This document shows, piece by piece, positions 23,866 through 47,104 of a stretch of DNA of 64,000 bases. Within the stretch, counting starts at the first letter, position 1, and each line of letters begins with the position of its first letter. The stretch covers positions 124,001-188,000 of the forward strand of contig DASXVE010000025.1 of the NCBI GenBank assembly GCA_036504445.1, written 5' to 3'. The notes beneath the pieces were generated by a model. It worked only from the letters and a program-made list of their open reading frames with translations. It had not been told where the DNA came from and searched no databases. The translations under genes were made by a program, and so were the position numbers. The DNA comes from Candidatus Aquicultor sp. (lineage in GTDB: Bacteria; Actinomycetota; Aquicultoria; Aquicultorales; Aquicultoraceae).

Positions 23866-25359
23866 TCAACTAAAAATCAGCAACTTTCTTGTTTCGGGGT
23901 GCGAATCCAATACCTGAACATCCTTAAAATATTGCTTTCCGGCATTAATCATTACTTCTATATTATAATTGGTTTCCGTATATTTGCTTAAATTTTTAAA
24001 GAAAGAGGGCTCGTTCTTAATCAGCTCATCGTTCAGATCGACATATTCTAATACGAGAACCTTTTGGCTCAACTTCGACAGGATCTTGAATGTTTCACTT
24101 ATCTCTTTCCCCTCACCTAAAACTAAGTGATGAATGAGGCCTAAACACAATACTAAGTCTGACCTAAATCGTGCCGTGGCTGGCATAAACAACGGATTGG
24201 TTTTGAAATCCCGCCCTTTATAGCCAGTTTCGTCGTAAGTAACGCCAAAAATCTCTTTGGTCAAATCATCAAATGATAATACCAGAGGAAGTATTTTCAG
24301 TTTATTGTCTCTCGAATATAAGTAGAGAGAATCAACTGAAGACTCATCTATATCGGTTGAAATAACCTCGGCCCCTAGCTTCTCGGCAAGGATTGAGAAC
24401 CATCCTGTATTTGCACCCAAATCCAGAACTCGTTTCGGTTTAGCATTAGCTACTACAGAATAGACATTCTTGTGCTTGTTCTCCCATCTCGATTGATTAG
24501 TAATGTCAAAGGCCTCACTCTTATTCTCGTAATATGATACGTAGGCGCTTTTAGGTGGAGTGACCTCTGTATCCGCAACAAACTCCAGCATTTTGCGCGT
24601 AAAATCGGCAAAGCTAAGCCTCTCTTTCGTGCTGATAAGCTGGCGTACCTCTGCAACCCTGCGGTAATTAATATTAGGTTCTACGCTACGCCCAAGAGCA
24701 CGCTTGGGCAGGTTCTTTGCTAACATTTTGAGCGAGCTTAAGGCAGAGCTTGGATACAGATCATCCCACCGGGGTGCGGTGCCACTACAATTACATGCTC
24801 TCTCAGAGAGCATGCTCCGTGCCGAGGCGTAATCATTCTTGGCTATTTCCATCAAAGGAACCAGCATAAACGGATTAAACATTCTATCAAACACTGCAAA
24901 CCTTGGATCGGAATAATTTGTGCCATCTAGGAGCCAGGATTCATTTTGTAGCTTATCTTTACGAACAATAGACAAGAAATCGACAAAAATCGGCTTGCAG
25001 AAATCAAAAACAATATTACTAGGCAGTGCATCCTTAAGCGTTAAACTGTGCTTTTCTAACTCAAGTAATAAGTTCAAGTGGAACATGATTGCATCCTTAA
25101 ACATATTCGCCGTCCACTCAAAGGGATATGAGATAATATACTTTCTGTGGTGAAACAATCTGTCCGTTTCAATAAAGTCGGTGTCAACAATACCGTACCG
25201 CTTTAAATCCAATTCTTTATATAGGTCGAAGATACCCTTTGCGATGTCTAGATACCCAGGGGCTAGTTTTCTTACTATAAATCCTCCACCGTCGTAAACG
25301 GTGCCATTATTGTCATAACCAACTATGGGTATTAGAGTATTATGCTCCTCAGACAGCAT
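23866..25359 (-). CDS. Two-domain protein with C-terminal class I methyltransferase
   Basis: About 497 aa. The first 290 residues are unassigned; they contain YDGGGFIVRKLAPGYL and DALPSNIVFDFCKPIFVDFL, with a kinase-like 'HxDxxxxNI' flavour that is too weak to call. The C-terminal part has RVLDLGANTGWFSILAEKLG (SAM motif I), VISTDIDESSVD and LVLCLGLIHHLVLGEG, a clear methyltransferase. The start at 25357-25359 has GAGG 7 nt upstream and overlaps the KpsC/S-like gene by 11 nt. A longer in-frame reading would run 137 nt into that gene and is rejected. Such proteins occur in nodulation and capsule loci; the role is unknown. Confidence 0.82.
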   Translation of the reverse strand: MLSEEHNTLIPIVGYDNNGTVYDGGGFIVRKLAPGYLDIAKGIFDLYKELDLKRYGIVDTDFIETDRLFHHRKYIISYPFEWTANMFKDAIMFHLNLLLELEKHSLTLKDALPSNIVFDFCKPIFVDFLSIVRKDKLQNESWLLDGTNYSDPRFAVFDRMFNPFMLVPLMEIAKNDYASARSMLSERACNCSGTAPRWDDLYPSSALSSLKMLAKNLPKRALGRSVEPNINYRRVAEVRQLISTKERLSFADFTRKMLEFVADTEVTPPKSAYVSYYENKSEAFDITNQSRWENKHKNVYSVVANAKPKRVLDLGANTGWFSILAEKLGAEVISTDIDESSVDSLYLYSRDNKLKILPLVLSFDDLTKEIFGVTYDETGYKGRDFKTNPLFMPATARFRSDLVLCLGLIHHLVLGEGKEISETFKILSKLSQKVLVLEYVDLNDELIKNEPSFFKNLSKYTETNYNIEVMINAGKQYFKDVQVLDSHPETRKLLIFS

Positions 25360-27058
25360 TATTTTCCTCAACCGTTTCAAGAGCTTGTATGTCCAGACCA
25401 GCGTTTTCAGCCAGTATGATGGCTGCCTCATCGCGTAATTCAGATAACTTAACCAGCTCCTCATCCATAACGAAATCTTTGCCATCTATTATTCTACTAC
25501 ATATGAAATCGATAAAAGGGTCTTCTTTAGGCAACAATAAATTACTCTTACTGAATTGAAATTGCCACCAGGCAGATTCCGGATCATCGACAATGGCTAG
25601 CGGAATCTGCCTCTGGATAAAATAGCAATAAGCATAATTACGTGCTAACCTTTGCTGTTCTTTACTTAGTGGTTTTAATGACGCCGCTTCCCTTAGTAGC
25701 CGTCGATAAGATTCAGGGCTAAGGCCATCATACGTAAAACCTTTGCCACCATAATGAGCTTCACCGGCTAAAACTACAGGTTTGCCTTGGAGCGCTAGCT
25801 CCAAGCCCGGTGTGCCATAAACCGTAATGCCACCATCTATCAACTCGAAAAAATCGAGAGGACTGATTTCATCTTCAGCATTAATTACTCTTACATGGGG
25901 AGGAAGCGTTGGGAAATGCTTTTGTATCAACTGCTGAACCCCATTTTCTGGACTATCCCATGCCTCAGCTGGATGTATCTTAATAAGCCATTGCACACCT
26001 GGAATCTCTACGACCTCGTTAAGCGTATCGAGAATCCATTCATCAAAAGTTTCATATGCCATGGGAGCGTAATCGGCAACAGCATCCCAATTGATATGTG
26101 ACATGATCCCCCATATGGGCTTAGTATCTAGTAGGCCATATTGCCTACGCAAAAGATCGACTTCGCCCTTATATTCTTTGAAATGTTTCATGTCAAAGCT
26201 GATTTGCTTTTGGTAGCGATCGTTTAAGAACTTATCTAACCGGGCATCCTGAAATTGTGTCATACTAAGGCTTCTCTGTTCTCTCCATACATTCTCACCG
26301 AGATTATGGAAGTCGATTCGTGCAATATCCTCTACGTGGCAAAAATAAAAACGCGCTCGCAAATACGATGCCATCCACGCTATTACTGGAATATTGCCAG
26401 CTAACGCTTCTTGCAAAGCAGGACCCCAATCTATATACGTACCGTGAGACATAAATATCTGAGAAGGCTTAATGCACTCAATCGCTGAAAGGGCTGCTGT
26501 AGCTGCCACGAGCCCGCTATATCCATATTCTTGGACTACTAACTCATGGCCTGCGAGATTTCCACCTTTGAGGTAGCGCATTATAGATGAACGGACGTTT
26601 TTGCCAATATTAATACTGTCACATGTAAGACTATCAAGCGACTCCCACGTTAAAGATTTAGCCTCATCTAACAATCTTGAGCGCACATGTTGTGGTACAA
26701 AATCGCCAATATAGGAAAAGCCAATATTTAGCTTATCAAGGACCAGGCTGTTTTGAGTACGACATTCCTTGCATGCATGTTTCCAAACATTAATTGGGAT
26801 ACCATCGCTAGCCTCCCGTTTGACGCAAGCTTGGAGGGCACCATCACAAATGACTGCATGAACATTATAGCCTCTCAACTTGAGAGCTAACGCTATGGCA
26901 CCCTCGATGTGCAGCATCAAAGGCATACCGCCAGGTACCCAAAATAATATTGTGTTGGTAGTATCCGACGAGATATCCGCCTGCTTTATTAGGCTTTTTA
27001 TACGCTGCTTCTCTTCATCCTTCTTAAAGGTATTTCGGATAACGCCTAGAAGACCCAT
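25349..27058 (-). CDS. KpsC/KpsS-like (capsule biosynthesis) GT-B protein
   Basis: 569 aa. An N-terminal Rossmann-like start (TTNTILFWVPGGMPLMLHIE) leads to a GT-B architecture. The second domain has PIWGIMSHINWDA, WLIKIHPAEAWDSP and ITVYGTPGLELALQGKPVVL, the HP and G-T-x-G-x-E-A patterns of the capsule_synth (KpsC/S) and glycerophosphotransferase-like groups. KpsC/S enzymes attach beta-Kdo linkers to lipid in ABC-exported capsules, and the ABC exporter at 43876-46098 would match; whether this protein does so is inference. No membrane segment. The methyltransferase gene downstream overlaps it by 11 nt. Confidence 0.75.
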   Translation of the reverse strand: MGLLGVIRNTFKKDEEKQRIKSLIKQADISSDTTNTILFWVPGGMPLMLHIEGAIALALKLRGYNVHAVICDGALQACVKREASDGIPINVWKHACKECRTQNSLVLDKLNIGFSYIGDFVPQHVRSRLLDEAKSLTWESLDSLTCDSINIGKNVRSSIMRYLKGGNLAGHELVVQEYGYSGLVAATAALSAIECIKPSQIFMSHGTYIDWGPALQEALAGNIPVIAWMASYLRARFYFCHVEDIARIDFHNLGENVWREQRSLSMTQFQDARLDKFLNDRYQKQISFDMKHFKEYKGEVDLLRRQYGLLDTKPIWGIMSHINWDAVADYAPMAYETFDEWILDTLNEVVEIPGVQWLIKIHPAEAWDSPENGVQQLIQKHFPTLPPHVRVINAEDEISPLDFFELIDGGITVYGTPGLELALQGKPVVLAGEAHYGGKGFTYDGLSPESYRRLLREAASLKPLSKEQQRLARNYAYCYFIQRQIPLAIVDDPESAWWQFQFSKSNLLLPKEDPFIDFICSRIIDGKDFVMDEELVKLSELRDEAAIILAENAGLDIQALETVEENNAV

Positions 27059-27158: not shown

Positions 27159-28571
27159 TCATGCTAAAGTGGATGTGATGCTTAGTTTGTTCTTAATAGT
27201 ATCCTTCATGCCAGTAAGTCTATCTACATTTGCTGGAACATGATTCAATAAACGTAGATAATCAGCAAACTTAAATAGTAGATAGTCATTATACCTTCTC
27301 GCCACTAATTGCACACCAAACGGTAGACCGTTCGGCGACGTAAAAACTGGCGCACTAATAACGGGCAGATGAGTCATTGTCCACATCAAGGCCGGGTCTG
27401 GGCTCTCAACCTCTTCCCGTATTGGCGCCTCACCTGCTGTACTTAGCGAAATCAGAATATCGTAATCATTGAAAAACTCATCCATCACATGCGCAAGCTC
27501 ATTCTGATCCTCTAATGCCTGGTGATATTGGGCAACTGTTATCTCATTCCCTTGCTTGATCAGGTCATTCATTATTGGCGAGACAAGCTCAGATTTCTTA
27601 AACTCTTCTCTAAAATAGTAAGATAAAGTCTTATTGTAAATTGTAGCGTGCACCAAATGTGCGCGTTCCATAATCACAGGTAAATCCACGTCAACAATCT
27701 CAATGTCATGGTCACAATCCAAGGCTTTCGCCCAATTCAACAAACCTTCTTTTGCGTAATTATCAGCATATTCCCAGGTGTGAGTTCGGACCAATGCGAC
27801 TTTCCATGGACGATTTGCTGGTTTATTCTGACGCTCCGTATCTCGTAAAGCATTATAACTCATAGGGTAGTTAGGACCATGAACTCGTAGGGCTTCAAAA
27901 ACTCGCTGCAGATCTTCGAAGTAAGCTGCAAAAAACCCTATGGTGTCTAAACTATCGGTCGTCTTTAGCATACCTGTGCGTGGGATAAGCCCAAATGAAG
28001 GCTTACATCCGTATACCCCGCAAAAGCTTGCTGGGCGGACAATCGACCCCGCAGTCTGAGTGCCGAGCGCTACAGGAACCATGCCGAGCGCTATTGCCAC
28101 GGCAGAACCACTGGATGATGTGCCGGGTGTACGTAGTGGGTCAAATGGGTTTAAAGTGTTGCCAAGCGTATGAACAGCAAATTCTGCAGTCTCAGTTTTG
28201 CCCGGAATGATTGCACCTGCGTTTCTTGCATAATACACCACGCGTGCATCGTTGCCGGGTGTGAAATCCTTCCACAGAGGGCTCCCCATTTGAGTTGGGA
28301 ACTCTTGGGTGTTCATAATATCTTTAATGGCTATCGGTATGCCTTCAAGCGGCCGTATTACATCACCTTTTAGGGCACAACAGCTTACTTCTGCCGCCTG
28401 CTGCATGAGCTTGTTCTTATCGAAGCAAACCCATGCATGATAATAGCAATCAAGCTCCTCAATCCTGTTTATACATATGTTGGCGATCTCTATTGGATCG
28501 ATTGATTTTTCTCTATAGCCTTCATGTATTTGGGCGATACTCTTATCTAAGAAGATACTCTCTGTCAACAT
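27159..28571 (-). CDS. Amidase-signature (GatA-like) amidase
   Basis: 470 aa. The Ser-Ser-Lys catalytic set is complete: Lys83 in GIPIAIKDIMN, the cis-Ser in GTSSSGSAVAIALG (residues 150-163), and the nucleophile Ser176 in TQTAGSIVRPASFCG. Family members hydrolyse amides (GatA frees ammonia from Gln; others cleave aryl or alkyl amides). No GatB or GatC is nearby. It lies 20 nt from a PseA/WbpG-like sugar amidotransferase and precedes a KpsC/S-like gene, so it may feed ammonia to that enzyme or deacylate a sugar. AGGAAAG lies upstream of the ATG. It is unusual for this kind of locus. Family certain, role speculative. Confidence 0.9.
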   Translation of the reverse strand: MLTESIFLDKSIAQIHEGYREKSIDPIEIANICINRIEELDCYYHAWVCFDKNKLMQQAAEVSCCALKGDVIRPLEGIPIAIKDIMNTQEFPTQMGSPLWKDFTPGNDARVVYYARNAGAIIPGKTETAEFAVHTLGNTLNPFDPLRTPGTSSSGSAVAIALGMVPVALGTQTAGSIVRPASFCGVYGCKPSFGLIPRTGMLKTTDSLDTIGFFAAYFEDLQRVFEALRVHGPNYPMSYNALRDTERQNKPANRPWKVALVRTHTWEYADNYAKEGLLNWAKALDCDHDIEIVDVDLPVIMERAHLVHATIYNKTLSYYFREEFKKSELVSPIMNDLIKQGNEITVAQYHQALEDQNELAHVMDEFFNDYDILISLSTAGEAPIREEVESPDPALMWTMTHLPVISAPVFTSPNGLPFGVQLVARRYNDYLLFKFADYLRLLNHVPANVDRLTGMKDTIKNKLSITSTLA

Positions 28572-28590
28572 GGCTCTTTCCTAACAATCC

Positions 28591-29805
28591 TCAATCTTGC
28601 TCTCTCGGGTCTTTCTTACTTCTCATCTTTTCTATCAGTTGCTCCACAAAAGGCATAATAGTTTCCCTATTTGGACCATTCTTAGGCTCAACTGGCAAGT
28701 CTAGATCCCTTATCGGCCCAACTCGGTGCTTTTTCATTGCCTCAAAGAACTCTTCTTCAGTTACACCGGTTATTTGTAGATAGTAGTCTAACGCCTCCGG
28801 CCTTTCCGTATCATACCTTTTTGAAAGCTCAAAGCCTTCTTCTCTCGTTAAGAGTCCATTTCTGACATCAATACTTGCGTGGAAGGTTGATCTTCCGTAC
28901 CCCCGCTTTAGATAGCATGTAAAATCATGCATGCCGGGCATCATACACTCCGCACTTTTGTAGCCTTTATATGTGCCCTCTATCTCAGTTTCCTTCCACC
29001 CGTATGTATCGCGGACAAATTCTGTCTGCCTCTCGTCATCCCAAAAAATATAATCACCCAAGTGAATTCCGTATATGCCTGCAGTATCTAATTCCTCCGG
29101 TGTAGGCATGTTGAAGGGATACAAATCCCTTTCAGTGAGGTAATCGCAGATCATTTCTTCTGGCTTTAGCTTTACTGAAACCTTTAACGCATAATCTTTG
29201 TCAAACTTATGGACAGGGCATTGGTAAGACGCACGGCCTGAGGATTCCGCAATTGATTCACCCCATATTAGGAGCGGAATATTGAACTTGGCTGCAATAT
29301 GTAAAGGAAAGGATGCGACACCTGCATGGCAATGCCAACATGAATCCCCGATACCTTCAACGGATCTCTTCGCAAGTCGATTAACAAGATTTCTATTAGG
29401 TGTGAACATCATATGATCAAGGTTAAACTGCTCGATTGTGTTTTGGAGATTGTACCAACCAGTTTCGCTGAACCAGTTATGACTGAATGTTACTGCCAGC
29501 GGTTTCATGCCATATACTTTAACCAATACATGCAATTGAAAAGTACTGTCTTTGCCGCCGCTGATTGGCACTATGCAATCATAATTATTACCTGCCTTAG
29601 CCTTGGCATCCTGCAATATCTTTCTCAACTGCTTTTCCCTTTGCGCCCAATCAATATGAATCTTTTGTTCTGAGGATTGGCATGCTTGGCATATCCCCAT
29701 TTCATCGAACTTAATACCCTCTTGTGTCTCTGGAATGCAACAGCGTATACAGTACTGAACCTTATCCTCTAATAAGGATTTTCCAAAACTCGAATCATTC
29801 GACAT
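28591..29805 (-). CDS. N-acetyl sugar amidotransferase (PseA/WbpG family)
   Basis: 404 aa. An N-terminal Cys cluster (YCIRCC at 18-23, CQAC at 39-42) probably binds zinc. The PP-loop ATP-pyrophosphatase motif SGGKDST lies at 82-88, and CWHCHAG is a further Cys/His site. The family adenylates an N-acetyl group of a nucleotide sugar or nonulosonate and exchanges oxygen for ammonia to give an acetamidino group. It needs an ammonia donor, which in Pseudomonas is HisH/HisF-like; none is seen here, whereas an amidase-signature gene follows 20 nt downstream. In a locus with pseB, C, I and F the natural reading is PseA-like, forming an acetamidino pseudaminic acid. Confidence 0.87.
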   Translation of the reverse strand: MSNDSSFGKSLLEDKVQYCIRCCIPETQEGIKFDEMGICQACQSSEQKIHIDWAQREKQLRKILQDAKAKAGNNYDCIVPISGGKDSTFQLHVLVKVYGMKPLAVTFSHNWFSETGWYNLQNTIEQFNLDHMMFTPNRNLVNRLAKRSVEGIGDSCWHCHAGVASFPLHIAAKFNIPLLIWGESIAESSGRASYQCPVHKFDKDYALKVSVKLKPEEMICDYLTERDLYPFNMPTPEELDTAGIYGIHLGDYIFWDDERQTEFVRDTYGWKETEIEGTYKGYKSAECMMPGMHDFTCYLKRGYGRSTFHASIDVRNGLLTREEGFELSKRYDTERPEALDYYLQITGVTEEEFFEAMKKHRVGPIRDLDLPVEPKNGPNRETIMPFVEQLIEKMRSKKDPREQD

Positions 29806-29809
29806 GAAC

Positions 29810-30364
29810 TTAATTACCTAACCTTTTAACAAACTCATCCTTGAGTACACTATACTCAATAGTATCTATATACCTGCCATGTTTAAATAGGGCCTCGCGT
29901 TTTCGTCCTTCTTCGATCATCCCTAGATATATTGCCAACCTTTGCATGGGAATATTCTCGATAGATGTTCCGCAGTAAATTCTGTGTAAATTCAATTCCA
30001 TGAACCCATGGCTCAATACCAGGAGGGCGGCCTCTTTCGAATAGCCCTTGCCCCAATAGTCTTTTTCGCCTATAAGAATCGCAAATTCTGCGCTTCTGCT
30101 AACAAAATCAATATTCTGTAATGCTACATTGCCGATATGCAAATCGTTCTCCTGCAAAACTATAGCTAACACAAGGGCATTTTGGGAATTAAAGGTGCTC
30201 TTGATATAAGCCTCAGCACTCCCCTCAGAATACGGGAAAGTGTGGTGAGAGTTGTATTTACACACCTCACTGTCATTCAGCCATTGGATATAGTTGCCTT
30301 CTAAGTCATCCTCACGAAGACTCCTAATATAAATGTTTTGTCCTATTAAAAATGGATGCTTCAT
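29810..30364 (-). CDS. GNAT N-acetyltransferase (RimJ/RimL-like)
   Basis: 184 aa. The acetyl-CoA binding segment is EKDYWGKGYSKEAALLVLSH (the Q/RxxGxG/A loop in variant form), followed by LHRIYCGTSIENIPMQRLAI, the conserved Asn-x-x-S/M helix. Typical full length. In pseudaminic acid synthesis PseH N-acetylates the 4-amino sugar made by PseC; this is the only GNAT in the module and the best candidate for that step, though its motifs look more like RimJ/RimL than like known PseH. It starts inside the stop of the upstream DegT gene (4-nt overlap). Confidence 0.85.
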   Translation of the reverse strand: MKHPFLIGQNIYIRSLREDDLEGNYIQWLNDSEVCKYNSHHTFPYSEGSAEAYIKSTFNSQNALVLAIVLQENDLHIGNVALQNIDFVSRSAEFAILIGEKDYWGKGYSKEAALLVLSHGFMELNLHRIYCGTSIENIPMQRLAIYLGMIEEGRKREALFKHGRYIDTIEYSVLKDEFVKRLGN

Positions 30365-31665
30365 CTTAGCTCATCCCTATATTTCCAAACTTTACTAAAG
30401 GCGTTAACGACATCATCCAAGTCGTCTCTCGCCATCGGCGGCCGCATTAGCTCATGGGTAATCAATATATCATCATACATGTGCTCGGCTACTGGGCAAA
30501 TTCCCTTGTCGTAGCTTACGTAGCCTTGGTACTTCGCACAGCTCCAAGGGCACCCGTCACTTCCGTACGCAATTTTATTCTGATAGATAGGTTGAAGATA
30601 TAACGGTTTAACATAGCCTGATCCAACCTTTACGCCTTCAATCTCTCTAAGCTCAATTGGCATCAATTCTGCTTTTACAGCCTCTACGAATCTATCCCTA
30701 TGAATGCCAGCAATTCGCCGATCATATTTTATGGGATGAACATAAAATGCATGTTTACTTCCAGGTCGAACTTTTGCAGGCTCTAGGCAGGGAATTTTCA
30801 CTAGCTCCTGCGTTAGATATTCTATATTAGCTAATCTTTTTTCCAATAGGTCAGGTAGCTTCTTTAATTGCTCTCGACCAATAGCAGCTTCGATTTCAGT
30901 CATCCGATAATTGAAACCTACCATGTTTACAAGTGTGCTAAATCCTTTACCATCTATTACTGCTTCTGCATGATTCCTTATCAATCGAACTTTTTCAGCT
31001 AGGTCGTCATTGTTTGTCACGACGACACCGCCTTCACCCGTGTGTATATGCTTGTGGTAATTCAGCGAGAATATCCCTATATCGCCCAAGGTTCCAGCGT
31101 ATTCACCTTTAAATGTAGCGCAAGGTGCTTGGGCGCAATCTTCGATCACAAAAAGATTATGTCTCTTTGCGATAGCATTTATCTTATCTGCATCATAAGG
31201 CTGCCCCATAATATCCACTACAATAATGGCTTTCGTTCGCTCCGTTATCCTCTCTTCTGTCGATTCGGGCGATAAGCAAAAATAGTCCTCCTCGATATCT
31301 GCAAACACTGGTATTGCATTATATATTAGTGGGGCAGAAGCTGAGACTGACATTGAATACGGCGTCACAATCACTTCATCTCCAGGACCAACCCCCGTTG
31401 CACCAACAGCGCAAAAAATCCCAGCAGTTGCAGAATTAACCGCTATTGCATGTTTCACGCCATAGAACTTCGACCACTCTTCTTCGAAAGCTCTAACTTC
31501 AGCGCCACCATAAAAATCCTCATGCCAACAGCCCAGGAATCTCGAAAGAGACCCCGATTTTATGACCCTTAACGCCGCACCTTCCTCTTCTTCTCCAACA
31601 GTAATATAGGCCGGAAACTTATGTGTCCTTACTTTCTTCCCACCATTAATCGCTAACTTTGGCAT
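30361..31665 (-). CDS. DegT/DnrJ/EryC1-family aminotransferase
   Basis: 434 aa, longer than the usual 370-390. The PLP-Lys lies in FSLNYHKHIHTGEGG and the PLP-anchoring block is VIEDCAQAPCATFKG. The substrate-side segment KYQGYVSYDKGICPVAEHMY near the C-terminus is extra compared with PseC. The Lys is present, so it is a true transaminase and not an RfbH-type 3-dehydrase, which has His. It may act on a second keto sugar in the module. It overlaps the gene upstream by 13 nt and the GNAT gene by 4 nt. The substrate is unknown. Confidence 0.88.
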   Translation of the reverse strand: MPKLAINGGKKVRTHKFPAYITVGEEEEGAALRVIKSGSLSRFLGCWHEDFYGGAEVRAFEEEWSKFYGVKHAIAVNSATAGIFCAVGATGVGPGDEVIVTPYSMSVSASAPLIYNAIPVFADIEEDYFCLSPESTEERITERTKAIIVVDIMGQPYDADKINAIAKRHNLFVIEDCAQAPCATFKGEYAGTLGDIGIFSLNYHKHIHTGEGGVVVTNNDDLAEKVRLIRNHAEAVIDGKGFSTLVNMVGFNYRMTEIEAAIGREQLKKLPDLLEKRLANIEYLTQELVKIPCLEPAKVRPGSKHAFYVHPIKYDRRIAGIHRDRFVEAVKAELMPIELREIEGVKVGSGYVKPLYLQPIYQNKIAYGSDGCPWSCAKYQGYVSYDKGICPVAEHMYDDILITHELMRPPMARDDLDDVVNAFSKVWKYRDELR

Positions 31666-32795
31666 AGATACTTCTCCATCTGCTGGATGACATTGCTCAC
31701 CGGGTTTTCAATTACGCTAAAGCTCTTTTCTGGGAGCTTGCCCGCGATAATAATTGATCGTAGTTCCTCCAGAAGCGTTTCTTTGTCAACAATACTCTTT
31801 AAGATTTCGCGTCTGTCTAATACAAAGGGGCTCACCCTGTTCAGACCTATCAAAACACTCAAGACGGGCTTACTTAAAACCACCGCTTCAATTAAAAACA
31901 TGGATGACATGCCCACAACAAGATCTGACATGAGAATTAGGTCCGACGAACTTAGCTCTCTATCTACTATAAATCTTAGCTCCTTTTTTCTTAAAGAGGG
32001 CAAAATACCTTCATAGGTATCAGTATCGTCTCGTGGGTGAAGCTTGATAACCATAAAAAGGGGCCTTTCAGATTCAGAAGAAACCGTATTTAGACTATCA
32101 ATAAGCTCTTTAAAAACACTCCGTTCGGTATAGCCCCAGAAACTCCCAGAGTCACTTACATCATAATCCTTTGAAACCGGCTCTGATGCAAAAGTTACGA
32201 CAAAATCAGATGCGCCTATGCCTAATTTTTCTCGTAACACAGTAATGCCTTCAGCCGATAACGTGTCTCTAGCTCTTACCAGCGCCTCAAAATAAGGGTG
32301 CCCCGTGACTAAAATCCTTGAATCCTCTAGGCCTTCTTGAATCGCCTCCTGCTTCGCATACTCATCCATAACCAAAATTTTTGAAGGAAAACAGAAGTCG
32401 GCTCTATTAATGTGCTGCACGCTGGCTTCGAAATGGTTGCCTTTTAAGAACCTGCTTGCGTAGTTTATCCACTGGTCAATTATGGCAAACGATGGAATCC
32501 CAAGCTGTTCTCCAACTTCCCAGAGGTATTTCTCAGTATCTTCCGTACTAGTGCCCGTGACAATAACATCTGGTTCTTCGGTTTTCAGCAATCCTTTAAT
32601 GCTCTCAGGGTTAACCTCTTTAATGGCGCTCATTATGTCAACACCAGCAATACCGGCCTTCAAATATTTTTCGAGTGCCGAATCTTTACCAAAAACTCTC
32701 GCTTTATAACCGCTATCCTCAAGAGGCTTGACGAGAGGGATTATCGTATTTGCGCCACCAGGATCTCTTGAGAATAAGAGTATTTTTTTACTCAT
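31653..32795 (-). CDS. GT-B-fold protein of the nonulosonate module (candidate PseG replacement or glycosyltransferase)
   Basis: 380 aa. The start KKILLFSRDPGGANTIIPLV is a Rossmann-like strand and loop. The C-terminal domain has MVIKLHPRDD and DLVVGMSSMFLIEAVVLSKP, the HP and S-S-x-x-x-E-A signatures shared by glycerophosphotransferase-like and epimerase-like GT-B proteins. It does not carry PseG motifs. It lies two genes downstream of pseF and overlaps neighbours on both sides (13 and 4 nt). PseG is absent from the window and also has a MurG-like GT-B fold, so this protein could fill the hydrolase step. A nonulosonyl transferase is equally possible. Fold inferred, function unknown. Confidence 0.72.
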   Translation of the reverse strand: MSKKILLFSRDPGGANTIIPLVKPLEDSGYKARVFGKDSALEKYLKAGIAGVDIMSAIKEVNPESIKGLLKTEEPDVIVTGTSTEDTEKYLWEVGEQLGIPSFAIIDQWINYASRFLKGNHFEASVQHINRADFCFPSKILVMDEYAKQEAIQEGLEDSRILVTGHPYFEALVRARDTLSAEGITVLREKLGIGASDFVVTFASEPVSKDYDVSDSGSFWGYTERSVFKELIDSLNTVSSESERPLFMVIKLHPRDDTDTYEGILPSLRKKELRFIVDRELSSSDLILMSDLVVGMSSMFLIEAVVLSKPVLSVLIGLNRVSPFVLDRREILKSIVDKETLLEELRSIIIAGKLPEKSFSVIENPVSNVIQQMEKYLCQS

Positions 32796-33766
32796 CGTTT
32801 TGCACTTTCCTTAATTTGCAAACAGGTCTGCAACGTTTTATACGCATCCTCAGCACTGCACTTGAGATCTTGTCCTTGCGATAAGTGAGCGTATATGTTG
32901 TCCGCTGCGTTATATAAAGCGTTGCTAAAAGATGTATTGCTTTCGGTGGTTCTAACAATGTTCTTGAAGCCCTTAAATACCTTACTCTCCTTGACATCGT
33001 ACTCTTCCACCTTAAAACCTAAATCAGAGATCCTGATTCTTTTCATCTTAAAAAACATATCTAGCTCGAACATCGTGTAGTTATTACAGTCGGCGTATTG
33101 AAGGAAGAACGACTTGTCTTTCTTAATGGTTAGAATTGCGGCGACACTCTCATCGTCTGGGTAGAAATCCGATATGGAACTAACATATCCTACCGAGTCT
33201 ATCTCGCCAATAAAATACCTCACCAAATCTACAAGGTGTGAGCCGTTATGTACGATTCCCTTTCCATAATAACCAGTTCCTGTTAGGAATTCGCCATATG
33301 TTCCATCTTCAATAGCGTGTCTTATTTTCTCGAACTCAGGCACAAAGCGCCGGGTATAATTAACGACTGTACTAATCCTTCTATCGTTGAGAACTTGAAC
33401 AATATCTTTAGCTTGGTCTAACGTCTTAGTAATAGGCTTCTCTGCAAAAATAACTTGTAACGGAAGTGTTGAGAGCTTTTTCAAGATAGCATAATGGTGC
33501 TCATCTGGAACAGCAACACATACTACATCGATTTTCTCTTTAGAGAAAGCTTCTTCAACACTTGGATATGACTTGCTTCCCCACAGCAAGCTCGCCGATC
33601 GAGCCTTCTCCTCATTAGCGTCAACAAAACCTAAGAGCTTAAACCTCTCATGCTTTTTAAAAGCATGGGCGTGGGTCAAGACCTCGACCGTCTCAGGTGT
33701 GTCAAAACTTGCGCCAATGTTGCCGGCTCCGATTATTAAAACATTATACTTTGAATTCACATGCAA
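32792..33766 (-). CDS. Gfo/Idh/MocA-family sugar oxidoreductase
   Basis: 324 aa. The NAD(P) loop is VLIIGAGNIGASFDTPE, then LGFVDANEEKARSAS, and the EKPI motif is QVIFAEKPITKTLDQA. These mark the family, which oxidises or reduces sugar or nucleotide-sugar hydroxyls. It overlaps the GT-B gene by 4 nt. Because pseI and pseF are immediately upstream, it may reshape the nonulosonate or a precursor. AGAGGG lies 5 nt before the ATG. The substrate cannot be read. Confidence 0.88.
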   Translation of the reverse strand: MHVNSKYNVLIIGAGNIGASFDTPETVEVLTHAHAFKKHERFKLLGFVDANEEKARSASLLWGSKSYPSVEEAFSKEKIDVVCVAVPDEHHYAILKKLSTLPLQVIFAEKPITKTLDQAKDIVQVLNDRRISTVVNYTRRFVPEFEKIRHAIEDGTYGEFLTGTGYYGKGIVHNGSHLVDLVRYFIGEIDSVGYVSSISDFYPDDESVAAILTIKKDKSFFLQYADCNNYTMFELDMFFKMKRIRISDLGFKVEEYDVKESKVFKGFKNIVRTTESNTSFSNALYNAADNIYAHLSQGQDLKCSAEDAYKTLQTCLQIKESAKR

Positions 33767-33874: not shown

Positions 33875-33890
33875 GCGTTTGTTTAAACGC
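33875..33890 (-). terminator. Weak hairpin at the end of pseF, possible terminator
   Basis: Arms GCGTTT and AAACGC (6 bp, 4-base loop) overlap the pseF stop codon. On the minus strand they are followed within 4 bases by a short T-rich run (TAGTTTTATT). The stem is short, so any termination is likely partial. It precedes a 116-bp gap before the Gfo/Idh gene. Confidence 0.25.
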
Positions 33891-34578
33891 CCCTTAATAT
33901 CCTGTACTTCATCTCTGCGATTTTCCAGTCTTCTTCATTGTCGATATCCTGCACTTCCGATTCCGGAACCTCTACCGCATATGTATTGTCCATAAAAAGC
34001 TTCTTTTGCCTAAGAAAGCTTCCGACTTTTAACCAATAAAACTGTCCGGCGTCGTGATACGTGGACATTAAATCTTGCGACCTCGAGTCCATATTCTCTG
34101 GCCAAATCATCGATAGACGGCCATTTTCAATCTTTAAAGCTCGCTGGATAGGATAGCTGAAACGCACAACAGGTAAAACCGAATCTGCGCTCGTTGTTTT
34201 CAAAGTAGAAAACCCGTCCTTTAAGTTATCCAACGAAATAAAGGGTGCAGTAGGATATATGCAGCAACAATAGCTAAAAACTTCGTCCCGCTTTTTGTAC
34301 TCTAAAAGCACCTCTTCTATAACATCAGCGGTTGTTGCAAGATCACTAGAGCTAGCTTCCGACCTTAGAAAAGGAACTTCGGCGCCTAACTCTTTCGCAA
34401 CACCTGCAATCTCTTCATCATCGGTCGAGACCATAACTTCATCAAAACACCCTGCGCTCATAGCCGCATCTATAGAATATTTAATTATGGGGTACCCAAG
34501 AAAAGCTCGGATGTTCTTTCTTGGAATTCTCTTGCTCCCACCACGAGCAGTAATAATTGCTAGACTCCTACCGCTCAT
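33883..34578 (-). CDS. pseF: Pseudaminic acid cytidylyltransferase (acylneuraminate cytidylyltransferase family)
   Basis: 231 aa. The N-terminus LAIITARGGSKRIPRKNIRA is the CTP-binding signature of CMP-nonulosonate synthases, and the following FLGYPIIKYSI fits PseF better than NeuA. It activates the free nonulosonic acid to its CMP form for transfer. The MVSTDDEEIA and CCCIYPTAPF blocks complete the family pattern. It overlaps pseI by 11 nt. Specificity for a pseudaminic-type acid is inferred from the neighbours pseI, pseB and pseC. Confidence 0.9.
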   Translation of the reverse strand: MSGRSLAIITARGGSKRIPRKNIRAFLGYPIIKYSIDAAMSAGCFDEVMVSTDDEEIAGVAKELGAEVPFLRSEASSSDLATTADVIEEVLLEYKKRDEVFSYCCCIYPTAPFISLDNLKDGFSTLKTTSADSVLPVVRFSYPIQRALKIENGRLSMIWPENMDSRSQDLMSTYHDAGQFYWLKVGSFLRQKKLFMDNTYAVEVPESEVQDIDNEEDWKIAEMKYRILRGV

Positions 34579-35650
34579 TTATATCTTCAACTCCATGTAC
34601 CAAATCCCAACTCATTGGTGTGCCCTTCTTAATATCTTTAGAGACCTTCTTACCTAATAGCGTTTCGTAGTACTTTGGCAAAAGACCGAACCCGGGTCTT
34701 ATAACCCGGAGGTTATCGCGTGTAAACACCTCGCCTGCCTTCATATCTTGCGTAACATAAAGCGACCGCCTGAAAAGCATTGACTTCTTCTCTTCATCTG
34801 TTGGCCCATCTTGTACCTTACCTAACGATTGCCAAGCCTTTTCAGACTCTGCAACAAGAACTTTCATCTCATCGGGTTCCATAGAAAAGACCGAATCAAC
34901 CCCACCATCAGCCCTTGAAAGAGTAAAATGTTTCTCTATTACTGTCGCTCCCAATGCCACACTTGCAACGGCCACTCCAATCCCAAGCGAATGATCTGAT
35001 AACCCTACTTCGCATTTAAACAATTCTCTTAAATAAGGGATTGTTAGGATATTAGAATTTATAGGGGTCGTCGGATATGAACTTGTGCATTTAAGTAAGA
35101 CAATATCTTTGCAGTCATTTTGTTGCGCTGCTTCAATCGATTCGGATATCTCTGCCATGCTTGCCAAGCCCGTTGATAAGATTATCGGCTTACCCGTTTT
35201 AACTACCTTTTTAATGAGTGGGATATGGATATTTTCAAAAGATGCGATCTTATAGCATGGAACATCAAGTTCTTCGAGGAAATCAACAGCCGTTTCATCG
35301 AAGGGAGTGCTGAAACCTATGATGCCTAGCTCCCGGCACCTATCAAATATAGGCTTATGCCATTCCCAAGGTGTGTACGCTTTCTTGTAAAGATCATATA
35401 AAGATGACCCTGCCCAAAGACTATCCGGATCGTCAATGTAAAAGTCAGCCCCGTTAGCATCGATCGTTATAGTATCTGCGGTGTAAGTCTGAAGCTTTAA
35501 GGCATGAGCGCCTGAAGCTGCCGCTGCCTCAACAATCGCTAATGCCCGCTCGATGGAATGATTGTGATTCCCAGACATCTCAGCAATGATAAACGGTCGA
35601 TAGTTTTTTCCTATTCTTTTATCCGCTACTTGTATAAATTTTTCCGCCAT
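34568..35650 (-). CDS. pseI: Pseudaminic acid synthase
   Basis: 360 aa, NeuB/PseI family: a TIM-barrel synthase and a C-terminal SAF (antifreeze-like) domain (about 295-360). FIIAEMSGNHNHSIERALAI at the start is typical of PseI rather than NeuB. KLQTYTADTITID and DLYKKAYTPWEWH also fit PseI. It condenses phosphoenolpyruvate with a 6-deoxy-2,4-diamino hexose to give the nonulosonic acid. It needs PseG to release the sugar from UDP; no PseG is seen. It lies 5 nt after the PIG-L gene and overlaps pseF. Confidence 0.93.
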   Translation of the reverse strand: MAEKFIQVADKRIGKNYRPFIIAEMSGNHNHSIERALAIVEAAAASGAHALKLQTYTADTITIDANGADFYIDDPDSLWAGSSLYDLYKKAYTPWEWHKPIFDRCRELGIIGFSTPFDETAVDFLEELDVPCYKIASFENIHIPLIKKVVKTGKPIILSTGLASMAEISESIEAAQQNDCKDIVLLKCTSSYPTTPINSNILTIPYLRELFKCEVGLSDHSLGIGVAVASVALGATVIEKHFTLSRADGGVDSVFSMEPDEMKVLVAESEKAWQSLGKVQDGPTDEEKKSMLFRRSLYVTQDMKAGEVFTRDNLRVIRPGFGLLPKYYETLLGKKVSKDIKKGTPMSWDLVHGVEDINER

Positions 35651-35654
35651 TGAT

Positions 35655-36353
35655 TTACTTCACTATATTTCGTCCTAAAATAAAGGCTTCAGCCGCTTCA
35701 ACACCGACACTCGCCCCTCGCCAGCCAGCTAAATACTCAGCAGCCCTTAGAGAGCGAGGATGCGGCCAATCACGCATCTCAGAATTATAGGCCGCTAAAG
35801 CCTCTAACTTCAAGCTTAAAACGCCTGTAATATCCACAAACCAATTAGGCATAAAATACGATACCGACCCCGGAACCTGCCATTCGGTGCTAGAGGGAAT
35901 CTCAAAAAACAAGAGCTGTTTCACAGTGCATCCAGGAACTGGCCTGCATGCAGTTATCACAGCATTGTGAACAATGCTGTGATCTATATTTAGATCCCCA
36001 GCATGATGAGTATAAACAACGTCCGATCGAGTTTTCTCTACGAGTGTCTCTACCGTCTTAACAACGTCTAACACATCAATCGAATCCATTCTATTATCTG
36101 GAAGATTAAGGAGCGTGAGCGATGAGACGCCTATGATTTCGTTTGCTCTTTGCGCAAACGCAGCCAGCTCGGATAACTTATCCCTGTATGCCTCTCTGTC
36201 TCTTTTATCGCTGCGGCTGGTTAGACCCTCAGCTAAAATGGCAACGTGAACCACATCGCCTTGCTTAGTGTGGCGTGCGATGGTTCCGCCGCAACCCAAG
36301 ATTTCATCATCCGGATGAGCAACAACTACAAGGATATTCACTCTTCTAATCAC
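35655..36353 (-). CDS. PIG-L-family sugar deacetylase
   Basis: 232 aa. The zinc-binding signature is LVVVAHPDDEILGCGGTIAR and the third ligand is in THHAGDLNIDHSIVHNAVI. The family removes N-acetyl groups from GlcNAc-containing lipids, mycothiol/bacillithiol precursors and some nucleotide sugars. Here it lies between an IMPase-like gene (8-nt overlap) and pseI, so deacetylation of a nonulosonate precursor or product is a possibility. A 13-bp inverted repeat lies in its coding sequence at 35956-35983. Confidence 0.9.
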   Translation of the reverse strand: MIRRVNILVVVAHPDDEILGCGGTIARHTKQGDVVHVAILAEGLTSRSDKRDREAYRDKLSELAAFAQRANEIIGVSSLTLLNLPDNRMDSIDVLDVVKTVETLVEKTRSDVVYTHHAGDLNIDHSIVHNAVITACRPVPGCTVKQLLFFEIPSSTEWQVPGSVSYFMPNWFVDITGVLSLKLEALAAYNSEMRDWPHPRSLRAAEYLAGWRGASVGVEAAEAFILGRNIVK

Positions 36354-41708: not shown

Positions 41709-42869
41709 CTACCTTACGATTTCCTTTATCGCCTTAACGACGAAATCTTGTTCTTCTTCAGTAAGTGTATAGAAAAGAGGAATAGATATCGCTTCTTTGT
41801 AATATTGTTCGGCCTTTGGGTAAGTGCCCTGCTTAAAACCTAGCTCACGATAATAGGGCTGGGTATGAACTGGTATATAGTGAACATTAACATTAATCCC
41901 TGATTCCCTTAGCTCATTGAAAACCTGTTGTCGTGACTTAGAAACCTTATTAAGTTTCAACCTTATAGGATAAATGTGATAGGCTGAAGAAGCATCAGGG
42001 TGCTGGTATGGACAAACTAACGGTAAGTCTTTTAGCAGATCGTTATACCTTTCTGCAAGGTACCGCCGTCTGTCTATGAAGCTATCTAGCTTTTGCAACT
42101 GGCTAAATCCTAGCGCAGCCTGAATGTCGGTTATTCTATAATTAAAACCAAGCTCAACCTGCTCATAATACCAGGGGCCATGAGATTCGTCTTGTATACA
42201 ACTGGGGTTACGGGTTATACCGTGGGTTCTTAGTCTCAGTAGCCTCTGATAGAGGTCTTCGTTATTAGTTATTATCATACCGCCTTCGCCCGTGGTAATG
42301 CTTTTTACCGGATGAAAGCTAAAAACAACCATATCAGAATATATACAGGCACCGATTTTGTGACCCTTGTAACTGCCACCAAGTGCGTGACAAGCATCCT
42401 CAATAATCGTAAGACCGTACTTTTTGCCGAGGTCGTTTATCCGTTCCATTTCACAGGACTGCCCGGCAAAATGAACAGGCATTAGAATTTTTGGAAGGCG
42501 CTCTGCTTCTGTTGTAGACAACTTGGCTTCTAGCTCATCAACACTCAAGTTGTAGGTTAGGGGATCAATATCTACGAAATTGGGTGTGGCCCCGCAATAC
42601 AAAGCGCAATTTGCTGAAGCAACAAAGGTATTCGGCGATGTCCATAAGATATCACCCTCTTTAAGGCCTGCGGCAAGACATGCGAGGTGAAGCGCTGCCG
42701 TGCCACTTGAGACGGCTATTGCATAATTTACTCCGCAGTATTCGGCAACGGCACGTTCAAATCGCTCAATAGCCGGTCCTTGCGTTATCCAGTCGCTTTT
42801 AAGAACGGCTATGACAGCTTCGATATCTTCTTCATTGATACTTTGTTTTCCATAAGGAATAGGGATCAT
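41709..42869 (-). CDS. pseC: UDP-4-amino-4,6-dideoxy-N-acetyl-L-altrosamine transaminase
   Basis: 386 aa, DegT family. The PLP lysine lies in FSFHPVKSITTGEGGMI. PYGKQSINEEDIEAVI and SDWITQGPAIERFERAVAEY at the start, with CALYCGATPNFVDID, match PseC. It transfers an amino group from glutamate to the 4-keto sugar made by PseB. It overlaps pseB by 4 nt (ATGA) and directly precedes the TIM-barrel gene. Second enzyme of the pseudaminic acid pathway. Confidence 0.93.
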   Translation of the reverse strand: MIPIPYGKQSINEEDIEAVIAVLKSDWITQGPAIERFERAVAEYCGVNYAIAVSSGTAALHLACLAAGLKEGDILWTSPNTFVASANCALYCGATPNFVDIDPLTYNLSVDELEAKLSTTEAERLPKILMPVHFAGQSCEMERINDLGKKYGLTIIEDACHALGGSYKGHKIGACIYSDMVVFSFHPVKSITTGEGGMIITNNEDLYQRLLRLRTHGITRNPSCIQDESHGPWYYEQVELGFNYRITDIQAALGFSQLQKLDSFIDRRRYLAERYNDLLKDLPLVCPYQHPDASSAYHIYPIRLKLNKVSKSRQQVFNELRESGINVNVHYIPVHTQPYYRELGFKQGTYPKAEQYYKEAISIPLFYTLTEEEQDFVVKAIKEIVR

Positions 42870-43846
42870 AGCGTTTTTACTACTTCCTTTAACTCTTCGG
42901 TAGTCAACCAGTGGGTATTTGTCCCTGAATTATATTCAAATTCAGCTGTGACCGGCTGCCCACCGTTATTAATAAAACGTTGGCCCCAGTAATTAAAATC
43001 AGGTTGAATTAAATAATAGGAATCAAATTCCAGCGTTCTTCGGGCATCATCTTTAGGAACCATAACCTCATGCAGCTTTTCGCCTGGTCGAATACCAACT
43101 ATCTCAGTCTTACATTCCGGGGCAATGGCTTTAGCTAAATCCATGATGTTCATGCTAGGTATCTTAGGGATAAATAGCTCACCACCAACCATCCGTTCAA
43201 GGCAATCTAAAACAAATTGAACACCCTGTTCAAGGGTAAGCCAGAATCGTGTCATACGGGGGTCCGTGATCGGTAACACGCCAGTCTCCCTCCGTTTAAG
43301 AAAAAATGGTATGACGCTTCCCCTGCTACCAACAACGTTTCCATAGCGAACGACACTGAAACGAGTATCATCTTCACCAACGTAGGAGTTACCCGCTATG
43401 AACAACTTATCTGAGCATAATTTTGTAGCACCATAAAGATTTATAGGATTTGCTGCTTTATCTGTGCTTAATGCTATAACTCGCTTAATATTTTGATCAA
43501 TGGCAACATTAATTACATTTTCAGCCCCGAGTATGTTGGTTTTGACCGCTTCGAACGGATTGTACTCTGCGGCAGGAACTTGTTTTAATGCCGCTGCATG
43601 TATAATGTAATCGACACCACGGAAAGCACGATACAGCCGTTCCTTATCCCGAACATCACCTATAAAATAACGTAAACAAGGATATTCTTTTTCTGAAAAG
43701 ACTTGCGCCATCTCAAACTGCTTAAGCTCGTCACGGCTGAAAATTATTAATCGCTTCGGCTTATATCTCTTTAAAATTGTTTCTGTACATTTCTTGCCGA
43801 AGGAGCCAGTCCCACCCGTGATCAAAATCGACTTTCCATTAAACAT
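42866..43846 (-). CDS. pseB: UDP-GlcNAc 4,6-dehydratase (inverting)
   Basis: 326 aa. GGTGSFGKKCTETILKRYKP is the NADP loop. AALKQVPAAEYNPFEAVKTN and STDKAANPINLYGATKL carry the Asp-Lys and Tyr-x-x-x-Lys catalytic set of inverting (PseB-type) dehydratases. It makes UDP-2-acetamido-2,6-dideoxy-L-arabino-hexos-4-ulose, the first committed step to pseudaminic acid. The ATG at 43844-43846 is preferred (AGGAG 8 nt upstream); a TTG one codon earlier is possible. Confidence 0.95.
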   Translation of the reverse strand: MFNGKSILITGGTGSFGKKCTETILKRYKPKRLIIFSRDELKQFEMAQVFSEKEYPCLRYFIGDVRDKERLYRAFRGVDYIIHAAALKQVPAAEYNPFEAVKTNILGAENVINVAIDQNIKRVIALSTDKAANPINLYGATKLCSDKLFIAGNSYVGEDDTRFSVVRYGNVVGSRGSVIPFFLKRRETGVLPITDPRMTRFWLTLEQGVQFVLDCLERMVGGELFIPKIPSMNIMDLAKAIAPECKTEIVGIRPGEKLHEVMVPKDDARRTLEFDSYYLIQPDFNYWGQRFINNGGQPVTAEFEYNSGTNTHWLTTEELKEVVKTL

Positions 43847-43875
43847 CAACTGCTCTCCTTATATAGTTAGCTTTA

Positions 43876-45204
43876 TTACGAACTAGATCTTTCATAAATC
43901 TCGTTCAATACCACATGCGATGGTATCGAAAAATAACCAATGGGCTGTGCTGGATTGAAATTTGAATGTCTTGCTATGTTGCCTGCGCTAATGACAAGCG
44001 GTGGAGTTAAATCATCAAGAACATCAATACTGGTTGATGACATATTAGCATCACTAAGATGTAAGTACAGAGGATACTCTCCCGGTCGTATGAATATATC
44101 AGGCAATTCAATGATAATTGTTCCATTAGTGCCAATATCAACCGTATCAGATGTTACTAAATGCTGAGCTGATGTTACGATATCTCTTGTAGCGCCGGAA
44201 CGCAATCCTACATAAATAATTAAACCTTGCATCCGCTTAAAAACCTTGTAAGATATCTTAATTCGTATGGTTTCGCCCATTTGGAAACTAAACCGTTTCT
44301 GTCCCATTATGTCTTCCGCTTCGGCCGAGGTAAAGCGAACCACGCCCAGCCCACGCCTATTTAATTCATTGGAAATGTCAGTCTCAGCATCAATTTCGAT
44401 ACTGCGTAGAAGTTGATTATAAGTATTTAACACCGTATCAGTCGCGCCCTCAGAAGCTATTGATCCTTTATTTAAAAGTATGCTCTTGGGGCATAAGTTA
44501 CGTATCGCCTGCATATTATGACTTACAAAAAGGACCGTTCTACCTTCCTTGCTTACATCCTCCATTTTGCCCAAGCACTTCTTCTGAAACTGTGTATCAC
44601 CAACTGCTAGCACCTCATCAACAATCAATATCTCTGGTTCAAGGTGTGCAGCTACAGCAAACGCGAGGCGCACATACATACCGCTAGAATAACGCTTGAC
44701 TGGGGTGTCAATAAACTTTTCGACTTCAGCAAATGAGATAATCTCTTCAAATTTTTTGGTTATCTCGTGCTTGGTCATCCCAAGAATTGCACCATTAAGA
44801 TAGACATTTTCTCTACCGGTTAATTCAGGATGAAAACCCGTGCCTACTTCAAGAAGACTTGCAACTCTACCCCTAATCTTAACCATGCCCTTAGTAGGCG
44901 TCGTAACCCTGGAGAGAATCTTTAGTAAAGTAGATTTGCCAGCTCCGTTGCGGCCGATGATGCCTAAAACCTCCCCAGGTGCGACATCAAATGAGACATC
45001 GCTTAATGCCCAAAATCTTTCGTTGAAACCATCAGCTTGCTTTGAAGAATCTGCAGCATTTATATTGATTTTTGAGTTAGGATCTACTTTGCCCGTGAAT
45101 CTAGCCCACCAGCTTTGAATATCATGTGTTAGCGTACCGTGACCTATTACGCCCAGCCTATATTGCTTAAATAAATTTTCAATACTTATCGAGATATCAC
45201 TCAT
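43876..45204 (-). CDS. wzt: Polysaccharide ABC transporter ATP-binding protein with C-terminal carbohydrate domain
   Basis: 442 aa. Residues about 1-250 are the ATPase: Walker A GRNGAGKST at 84-92, the signature YSSGMYVRLAFAV, and Walker B EILIVDEVLAVGD. Residues about 270-425 form a Wzt-type beta-sandwich (PSF-like FSFQMGETIRIKISY, FIRPGEYPLYLHLSD) that recognises the finished glycan terminus. It drives export of a lipid-linked chain with the permease 28 nt upstream. The Wzt C-domain implies chain-end modification (methyl or phosphate cap), consistent with the many methyltransferases here. Confidence 0.94.
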   Translation of the reverse strand: MSDISISIENLFKQYRLGVIGHGTLTHDIQSWWARFTGKVDPNSKININAADSSKQADGFNERFWALSDVSFDVAPGEVLGIIGRNGAGKSTLLKILSRVTTPTKGMVKIRGRVASLLEVGTGFHPELTGRENVYLNGAILGMTKHEITKKFEEIISFAEVEKFIDTPVKRYSSGMYVRLAFAVAAHLEPEILIVDEVLAVGDTQFQKKCLGKMEDVSKEGRTVLFVSHNMQAIRNLCPKSILLNKGSIASEGATDTVLNTYNQLLRSIEIDAETDISNELNRRGLGVVRFTSAEAEDIMGQKRFSFQMGETIRIKISYKVFKRMQGLIIYVGLRSGATRDIVTSAQHLVTSDTVDIGTNGTIIIELPDIFIRPGEYPLYLHLSDANMSSTSIDVLDDLTPPLVISAGNIARHSNFNPAQPIGYFSIPSHVVLNEIYERSSS

Positions 45205-45231
45205 CTTAGCCCATTTCCCATGTTAAACTAG

Positions 45232-46098
45232 CTAAATTGTATCCATAAAAGATTTTTCGATACGGGTAAATAATACAAGCCCACCCACTAAGATCAATGC
45301 CGTCATTCCCAGACTCACAGCTAATTGCCAAAGTTTTATTGAACCGGCTCCAAGAAAGGCATACCGAAAGGTCTCAATAACAGCCGTCATAGGATTTAAC
45401 GCATATAGCATCTGCCACTTAACCGGTATCTGGGACAACGGATAGACAACAGGTGTCGCATACATCCAAAGCTGAACACCAAATGTTACAAGAAATGTAA
45501 GATCTCGATATTTCGTAGTTAGGGACGAAACTAGTATGCCACCACCAAGCCCAAGAGCAGCCATTTGGATTAGCAAAACAGGTGCTAGAAGTAGCCAACA
45601 GTTTGGCTTAATAGGCGCGCCTTTTAAGTAAAAGAACAGCATAAAAACCAAAAACAGGCAAAACTGAATAGCAAATGCAAAAAGATTAGTTATGACTACT
45701 GATATCGGTACGGCAAGACGCGGAAAGTATACTTTGCCGAAAATCGGAGCATTTGTCGCAAAAGTATCTGAAGTCTTAGTTAAACAAGTGGCGAAATAGT
45801 TCCAGGTAATAATTCCGGACATATAAAACAGGATTTGAGGTAAACCATCGGTTGGAATATGCGCAATATTACCAAAGACAATCGTAAAAACCACGGTTGT
45901 AAATAATGGCTGTAGCAAAAACCAGGTCGGGCCCAAAACCGTTTGCTTGTAAAGAGCAACAAAGTCACGACGTACGAATAGTAAGATCAGATCTCTGTAA
46001 TGCCATAGTTCGGCTAAGTTGATGTCAAACCACCCAGTGCGAGGTTCTATAATCGTAGTCCAATCATCAGGGCTTACCTTATGTTTTATAGCATCCAT
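45232..46098 (-). CDS. wzm: Polysaccharide ABC transporter permease
   Basis: 288 aa ABC-2 type permease. A cytoplasmic N-terminal helix (ELWHYRDLILLFVRRDFVAL) is followed by about six membrane segments and ends with VLFTRIEKSFMDTI. GPTWFLLQPLFTTVVFTIVF is the conserved first segment of Wzm/TagG/RfbA permeases. It forms the channel for the Wzt ATPase 28 nt downstream and lies 38 nt after fcl. Confidence 0.93.
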   Translation of the reverse strand: MDAIKHKVSPDDWTTIIEPRTGWFDINLAELWHYRDLILLFVRRDFVALYKQTVLGPTWFLLQPLFTTVVFTIVFGNIAHIPTDGLPQILFYMSGIITWNYFATCLTKTSDTFATNAPIFGKVYFPRLAVPISVVITNLFAFAIQFCLFLVFMLFFYLKGAPIKPNCWLLLAPVLLIQMAALGLGGGILVSSLTTKYRDLTFLVTFGVQLWMYATPVVYPLSQIPVKWQMLYALNPMTAVIETFRYAFLGAGSIKLWQLAVSLGMTALILVGGLVLFTRIEKSFMDTI

Positions 46099-47101: not shown

Positions 47102-47104
47102 GAG

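Follow-up and report, generated by a model that had tools for sequence, protein, structure and literature searches.

The window, by which is meant the whole 64,000-nucleotide stretch of Candidatus Aquicultor DNA that was analysed, contains an amidotransferase gene of the WbuX/WbpG/PseA type and, immediately downstream of it, a gene for an amidase-signature protein (Table 1). Both reading frames were confirmed at the coordinates listed there, on the minus strand and with WbuX first. The first-pass annotation had placed the amidase 20 nt downstream; the direction was right, but the gap is 19 nt. In relatives of the pair, the spacing lies between -35 and +23 nt in most loci and is often exactly -4, an overlap of stop and start. 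Such short or overlapping spacing suggests that the two genes are translationally coupled. The order of genes running downstream along the operon is PseB, PseC, then PseI, PseF, the Gfo/Idh dehydrogenase, the GT-B-like protein, DegT, GNAT, WbuX and the amidase.

Table 1. Features of the WbuX-amidase locus and its surroundings, in window coordinates.
Feature	Position	Strand	Basis
Capsule_synth-like protein	25349..27058	-	Weak PF05159
Amidase-signature protein, 470 aa, malonamidase-E2-like; proposed ammonia source	27159..28571	-	PF01425, WbuX-adjacent amidase clade, triad
Intergenic gap WbuX/amidase, 19 nt	28572..28590	-	Sequence
WbuX/WbpG/PseA-type N-acetyl-sugar amidotransferase, 404 aa	28591..29805	-	TIGR03573, PP-loop SGGKDS, Zn-binding CxxC...CxxC
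GNAT acetyltransferase; proposed maker of the N-acetyl group later turned acetamidino	29810..30364	-	PF13302
DegT-family sugar aminotransferase	30361..31665	-	PF01041, E 6.7e-88
Surface-carbohydrate protein, GT-B/Glyphos_transf type, often in cassette	31653..32795	-	Weak TIGR04396/PF04464; neighbourhood
Gfo/Idh/MocA dehydrogenase of cassette	32792..33766	-	PF01408; neighbourhood
PseF, pseudaminic acid cytidylyltransferase	33883..34578	-	TIGR03584, 304.2 bits (cut-off 205.7)
PseI, pseudaminic acid synthase	34568..35650	-	TIGR03586, 494.8 bits (cut-off 340.25)
PseC	41709-42869		Well above NCBIfam cut-off
PseB	42866-43849		Well above NCBIfam cut-off

Most of the CMP-pseudaminic acid pathway is thus encoded in the window, by PseB, PseC, PseI and PseF. 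PseI is adjoined by a gene for a PIG-L/LmbE-type deacetylase (35655-36353), homologues of which occur in loci L037, L062 and L110; a further N-deacetylation step of the same pathway is possible. Next to the PseB/PseC region (41709-43849) lie genes for Wzt/Wzm-like ABC export (43876-46098) and for GDP-fucose (46136-48184). Most relatives likewise have a GNAT gene immediately before WbuX, and most are also adjoined by DegT orthologues, which are 37-69% identical. In the WbpB-WbpE-WbpD-WbpG route, a dehydrogenase, an aminotransferase, an acetyltransferase and an amidotransferase act in sequence. By analogy, the dehydrogenase of the cassette, DegT, GNAT and WbuX may convert a sugar hydroxyl into a keto, an amino, an acetamido and lastly an acetamidino group. 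Beyond the amidase, orthologues of the Capsule_synth-like protein occupy the same position, directly after the amidase, in L039, L040, L042, L044-L046, L050 and L062. The reading frame of this protein overlaps the downstream one at 23866-25485 (539 aa) by 137 nt (25349-25485), and the start of the downstream frame was probably called too early.

The WbuX/NASAT family has been defined by a PP-loop, SGGxDS, and a tetracysteine CxxC...CxxC motif (PMC10607449). Both are present in the window protein, as SGGKDS at S82-S87 and as C19/C22/C39/C42, and these residues are invariant or nearly so. An NCBIfam profile search gave 351.6 bits for TIGR03573 (WbuX) against a cut-off of 203.2, which bears out the initial call of a WbpG/PseA-like amidotransferase. 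The AlphaFold model has a pLDDT of 94.2, and the closest solved structure is 8WEX LpNASAT. On these features the product is classed as an N-acetyl-sugar amidotransferase, which is predicted to convert an acetamido to an acetamidino group.

The neighbouring protein belongs to the amidase-signature family by its profile match (Pfam PF01425, E 2.7e-77) and by its Lys-cisSer-Ser triad, Lys83, Ser152 and Ser176, which is invariant across 39 aligned sequences. It had been described at first as a GatA-like amidase with a complete Ser-Ser-Lys set. The set is indeed complete, but "GatA-like" holds only loosely: the protein scores 197.7 bits with TIGR00132 where 481.1 are required and falls outside the GatA clade, and it was rejected as a GatA for these reasons and for its lack of the glutamine-binding Arg and Asp. 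Yeast GatA binds glutamine through Arg334 and Asp418 (PMC4027206), and no counterpart of either residue was found in the window amidase by residue alignment. Thus, hydrolysis of glutamine by this amidase is not predicted by homology.

Among solved structures, malonamidase E2 of Bradyrhizobium japonicum (PDB 1OBI/1OCK) comes closest both in sequence (E 8.9e-54) and in fold (TM 0.79/0.90). The AlphaFold model of the window amidase (pLDDT 92.9) had this enzyme, an R158Q mutant of which has been crystallised, as its best fold match. Lys83, Ser152 and Ser176 align with Lys62, Ser131 and Ser155 of malonamidase E2, the two proteins have the Gln-Thr-x-Gly-Ser nucleophile motif in common, and Arg179 of the window amidase is the equivalent of Arg158. 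This arginine, three residues past the nucleophile, is Arg in 94% of the WbuX-paired amidases and otherwise mostly Lys; in GatA and most other amidases the corresponding Arg sits one position earlier. Although all four of these malonamidase residues are conserved, the two enzymes share only about 30% identity and the window amidase belongs to a separate, supported clade. In its motif, PGTSSSGS, Thr replaces the Gly of other aligned amidases. Throughout the paired clade, Thr (in one case Ser) precedes the cis-Ser, whereas malonamidase E2 and every GatA or other amidase that was read have Gly at this position. By the same residue, the nine free-standing amidases that were read from the phylum of the window, at about 39% identity or less, were rejected as members of the clade, since all nine have Gly there. 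To our knowledge, malonamidase E2 has no amidotransferase partner. Taken at sequence level, the window protein is likely an amidase that releases ammonia from a small amide bearing a carboxylate.

The first-pass annotation had remarked that HisH and HisF are missing from the window, and none was found there or elsewhere on its contig. The search it proposed for copies outside the his operon also returned none: the genome, with an estimated completeness of 100%, carries hisH once and a single hisA/hisF pair, and all three genes belong to the his operon, which lies on a different contig (C23). An extra hisH/hisF set elsewhere is thus ruled out for this genome by its single his-operon set, and for relatives by position. 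The same genome encodes two amidases, GatA and the one adjacent to WbuX.

To follow the pair across genomes, about 85,000 species genomes were scanned with the WbuX alignment and the best 80 loci were kept. Sixty-seven of them have a WbuX 51-76% identical to that of the window, and 13 have one at 38-40%. Three of the 67 (L052, L057 and L098) end inside WbuX and were left out, which leaves 64 informative loci. A homologous amidase adjoins WbuX in 63 of these: 59 in which tblastn found the amidase within 5 kb and four that at first appeared to be exceptions but were dismissed as such. In two of the four (L060 and L092), the start of an amidase reading frame follows WbuX directly before masked sequence or the end of the contig; in the others (L061 and L099) the contig breaks, and its other half carries the end of WbuX and then the amidase. 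In the sole bacterial exception, L095, an amidase of the clade type is encoded at another place in the genome. The two genes share a strand in each of the 59 tblastn loci, and in most of these the amidase comes directly after WbuX.

HisH or HisF was not found as a neighbour of the window-clade WbuX in any of the 67 loci; the HisH/HisF on the L098 contig adjoin a second, distant WbuX. In the sister clade, all 13 loci have HisH and/or HisF and none has the amidase. Nor was a clade-type amidase found elsewhere in those 13 genomes, where the best matches were GatA or local matches. A pattern of HisH/HisF neighbours without the amidase had been named in advance as evidence against the pairing. The clade of the window has the reverse pattern, and the HisH/HisF neighbours belong to its sister clade. 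Hosts of the window-clade WbuX span about 18 phyla of bacteria and archaea. At the level of the order, WbuX was found only in the genome of the window, and a survey of the phylum gave seven distant WbuX loci, four with HisH/HisF and three in which neither partner was found. Among the open-access papers that were searched, none reported a WbuX-amidase pairing.

In the amidase tree, the paired amidases (56 full-length sequences, including that of the window) form one clade with an SH-aLRT of 99. Apart from it stand 31 GatA sequences and 29 other amidases (malonamidase E2 and 28 encoded by the hosts of the paired amidases), and the rows nearest to the clade from outside are malonamidase E2 and a few relatives. 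In the WbuX tree, the amidase-partnered and HisHF-partnered rows separate with support of 97 and 97. Two changes of partner were counted, one of which is a labelling artefact of L098. One partner switch therefore suffices, so that, strictly, the exclusivity between amidase and HisHF rests on one evolutionary event and the loci cannot be counted as independent cases. The recurrent feature is that the pair has been kept despite long divergence, horizontal movement and a scrambled order of the other cassette genes, as in L036, L065 and L088. The distance matrices of WbuX and amidase give a mirror-tree correlation of r = 0.88; the next highest pair, Gfo/Idh with the GT-B protein, reaches 0.72, and no other cassette pair exceeds that value.

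One locus in Verrucomicrobia (L104) has the order DegT-GNAT-WbuX-HisH-HisF, and its DegT nests inside the DegTs of the amidase-type cassettes. L104 is one locus only, and it has a GNAT that shares just 24% identity with that of the window. The exchange of partners together with the nesting of DegT indicates that the same sugar chemistry can be combined with a different ammonia partner.

These results were read as follows. A dedicated ammonia-releasing amidase has probably displaced HisH/HisF for one clade of WbuX, giving a two-gene sugar-amidination module; we put the probability of this at roughly 0.7. WbuX would activate the N-acetyl group of the sugar with ATP through its PP-loop, and ammonia would displace the oxygen of the activated group to give the acetamidino group. 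The amidase would free that ammonia from a small carboxylate-bearing amide by means of its Lys-cisSer-Ser triad, and so do for the window-clade WbuX what HisH, the glutaminase, and HisF do for other WbuX-type enzymes. The displacement would have been non-homologous and have happened once, in the ancestor of the WbuX clade of the window, after which the pair would have spread as a unit. We infer that the amidase makes ammonia for WbuX and that the donor would be Gln, Asn or a malonamate-like amide. Functional replacement is supported by the adjacency in 63 of 64 loci, the exclusivity, the shared descent (r = 0.88) and the exact swap at L104, which also speak for the original suggestion that the amidase is the ammonia source of the amidotransferase. 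The conservation of the triad and of Arg179 adds to this support.

On a different reading, the amidase would carry out a sugar step of its own, such as hydrolysing an N-acyl or carboxamide group of the nonulosonic or amino sugar that is also amidinated, either before that step or afterwards, and WbuX would take free ammonia from the cell. Amidase-signature enzymes act on a broad range of substrates, the nearest characterised relative hydrolyses malonamate rather than glutamine, and the glutamine-binding residues of GatA are absent. In addition, the conserved Arg179 fits a substrate bearing a carboxylate, and a nonulosonic acid could be one. However, a separate step leaves the strict exclusion with HisH/HisF unexplained, and L104, with HisH/HisF in the place of the amidase in the same DegT/GNAT/Gfo cassette, counts against it. 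The amidase also tracks WbuX (0.88) far better than it tracks the sugar-pathway genes (0.59 or less), and it stays beside WbuX in loci that lack those genes in the vicinity (L036, L065 and L088). We therefore regard a separate sugar step as improbable.

It is less probable still that the housekeeping HisH/HisF or free ammonium supply WbuX with its ammonia, and that the amidase only clears a toxic by-product or edits a wrong amide. The ability of related PP-loop enzymes, NadE for one, to work with free ammonia favours this explanation, as do two phage contigs with a WbuX of the window type and no amidase nearby. However, no HisH was found (E 1e-20) in 16 of the 50 host genomes of the window-clade WbuX, and HisF over the cut-off was found in none of these 16, some of which are incomplete. 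Six Ignavibacteria/Bacteroidetes genomes, the hosts of L039, L040, L042 and L044-L046, are consistently without both. Thus, HisH/HisF apparently cannot be borrowed in many hosts, which removes that version of the explanation there. Nine genomes have more than one type of WbuX (G397, G406, G417, G420, G421, G426, G435, G441 and G443), and in these the extra or only HisH adjoins the other WbuX, never the amidase-paired one. The near-universal adjacency of the pair in cells also argues against this explanation.

The phage contigs belong to a set of eight WbuX loci of the window type on viral contigs, of which five have the amidase, one is cut off and two are without a nearby amidase. The latter two, L207 (with terminase- and portal-like genes) and L209 (with an HNH-type gene), have a DegT-GNAT-WbuX cassette without the amidase. 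An amidase gene next to WbuX is thus not obligatory, perhaps because the host provides the enzyme or because free ammonia is enough. From their gene content, phages seem to carry sugar-amidination genes. The more distant WbuX loci of the viral set (n=72) include 53 with HisH/HisF and none with the amidase, and searches of plasmid and phage records returned no clade-type WbuX-amidase pair.

Points against the displacement of HisH/HisF by the amidase are the missing glutamine-binding residues of GatA, the exceptions L095, L207 and L209, and the existence of more distant WbuX loci with neither partner. For example, on a plasmid of Alistipes indistinctus (L200, 3004-4149) WbuX lies within a NeuA-NeuB-NeuC operon, and neither HisH/HisF nor the amidase is present in the stretch shown. 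On plasmid p5 of Azospirillum brasilense (NZ_CP032350.1; L198, 2166-5125), genes for an asnB-type glutamine-hydrolysing asparagine synthase and NeuB directly precede a distant WbuX, and no HisH/HisF or amidase was found in the 9 kb shown. The asnB-type enzyme is possibly a third kind of ammonia partner.

Lastly, a linkage in which the two genes travel together only as passengers of a shared, horizontally moved polysaccharide cassette is highly improbable: the cassette clearly moves between phyla, but the pair persists even where the genes around it are rearranged or absent, and the distance correlation of WbuX with the amidase tops that of every other cassette pair.

The displacement of HisH/HisF by an amidase can be compared with two known systems. 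The first is the WbpG/PseA/WbuX system with HisH/HisF, of the type known from the B-band O-antigen of P. aeruginosa. Its amidotransferase belongs to the same family (TIGR03573), with the same PP-loop and Zn tetracysteine, and has the same place in a cassette of dehydrogenase, DegT aminotransferase, acetyltransferase and amidotransferase. However, in the window one amidase-signature protein occupies the position of HisH/HisF, neither of which adjoins WbuX, and the window-type WbuX forms its own clade, with 40% identity or less to the HisHF clade. The second is GatCAB, in which GatA is likewise a triad amidase paired with an ATP-using amidating enzyme; it is the closest precedent for a possible mode of action. 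It differs in that the partner in the window is a PP-loop sugar enzyme, not GatB, and in that there is no GatC.

A more specific version, that the two proteins are physically joined in a complex and that the amidase hands ammonia from a non-glutamine donor (Asn or a malonamate-like amide) to the PP-loop enzyme, is tentative and, in our estimate, rather unlikely. It would be a second, independently evolved solution of the GatA/GatB kind and, if true, a new way of making acetamidino sugars. The pairing, if it functions as proposed, would explain the N-acetyl-sugar amidotransferases of many bacteria and archaea that are without HisH/HisF, and would be the second known instance, GatA being the first, in which an amidase-signature enzyme has been recruited to supply ammonia to an ATP-driven amidation. 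It would also define a recognisable pair of genes from which amidino sugars in surface glycans could be predicted.
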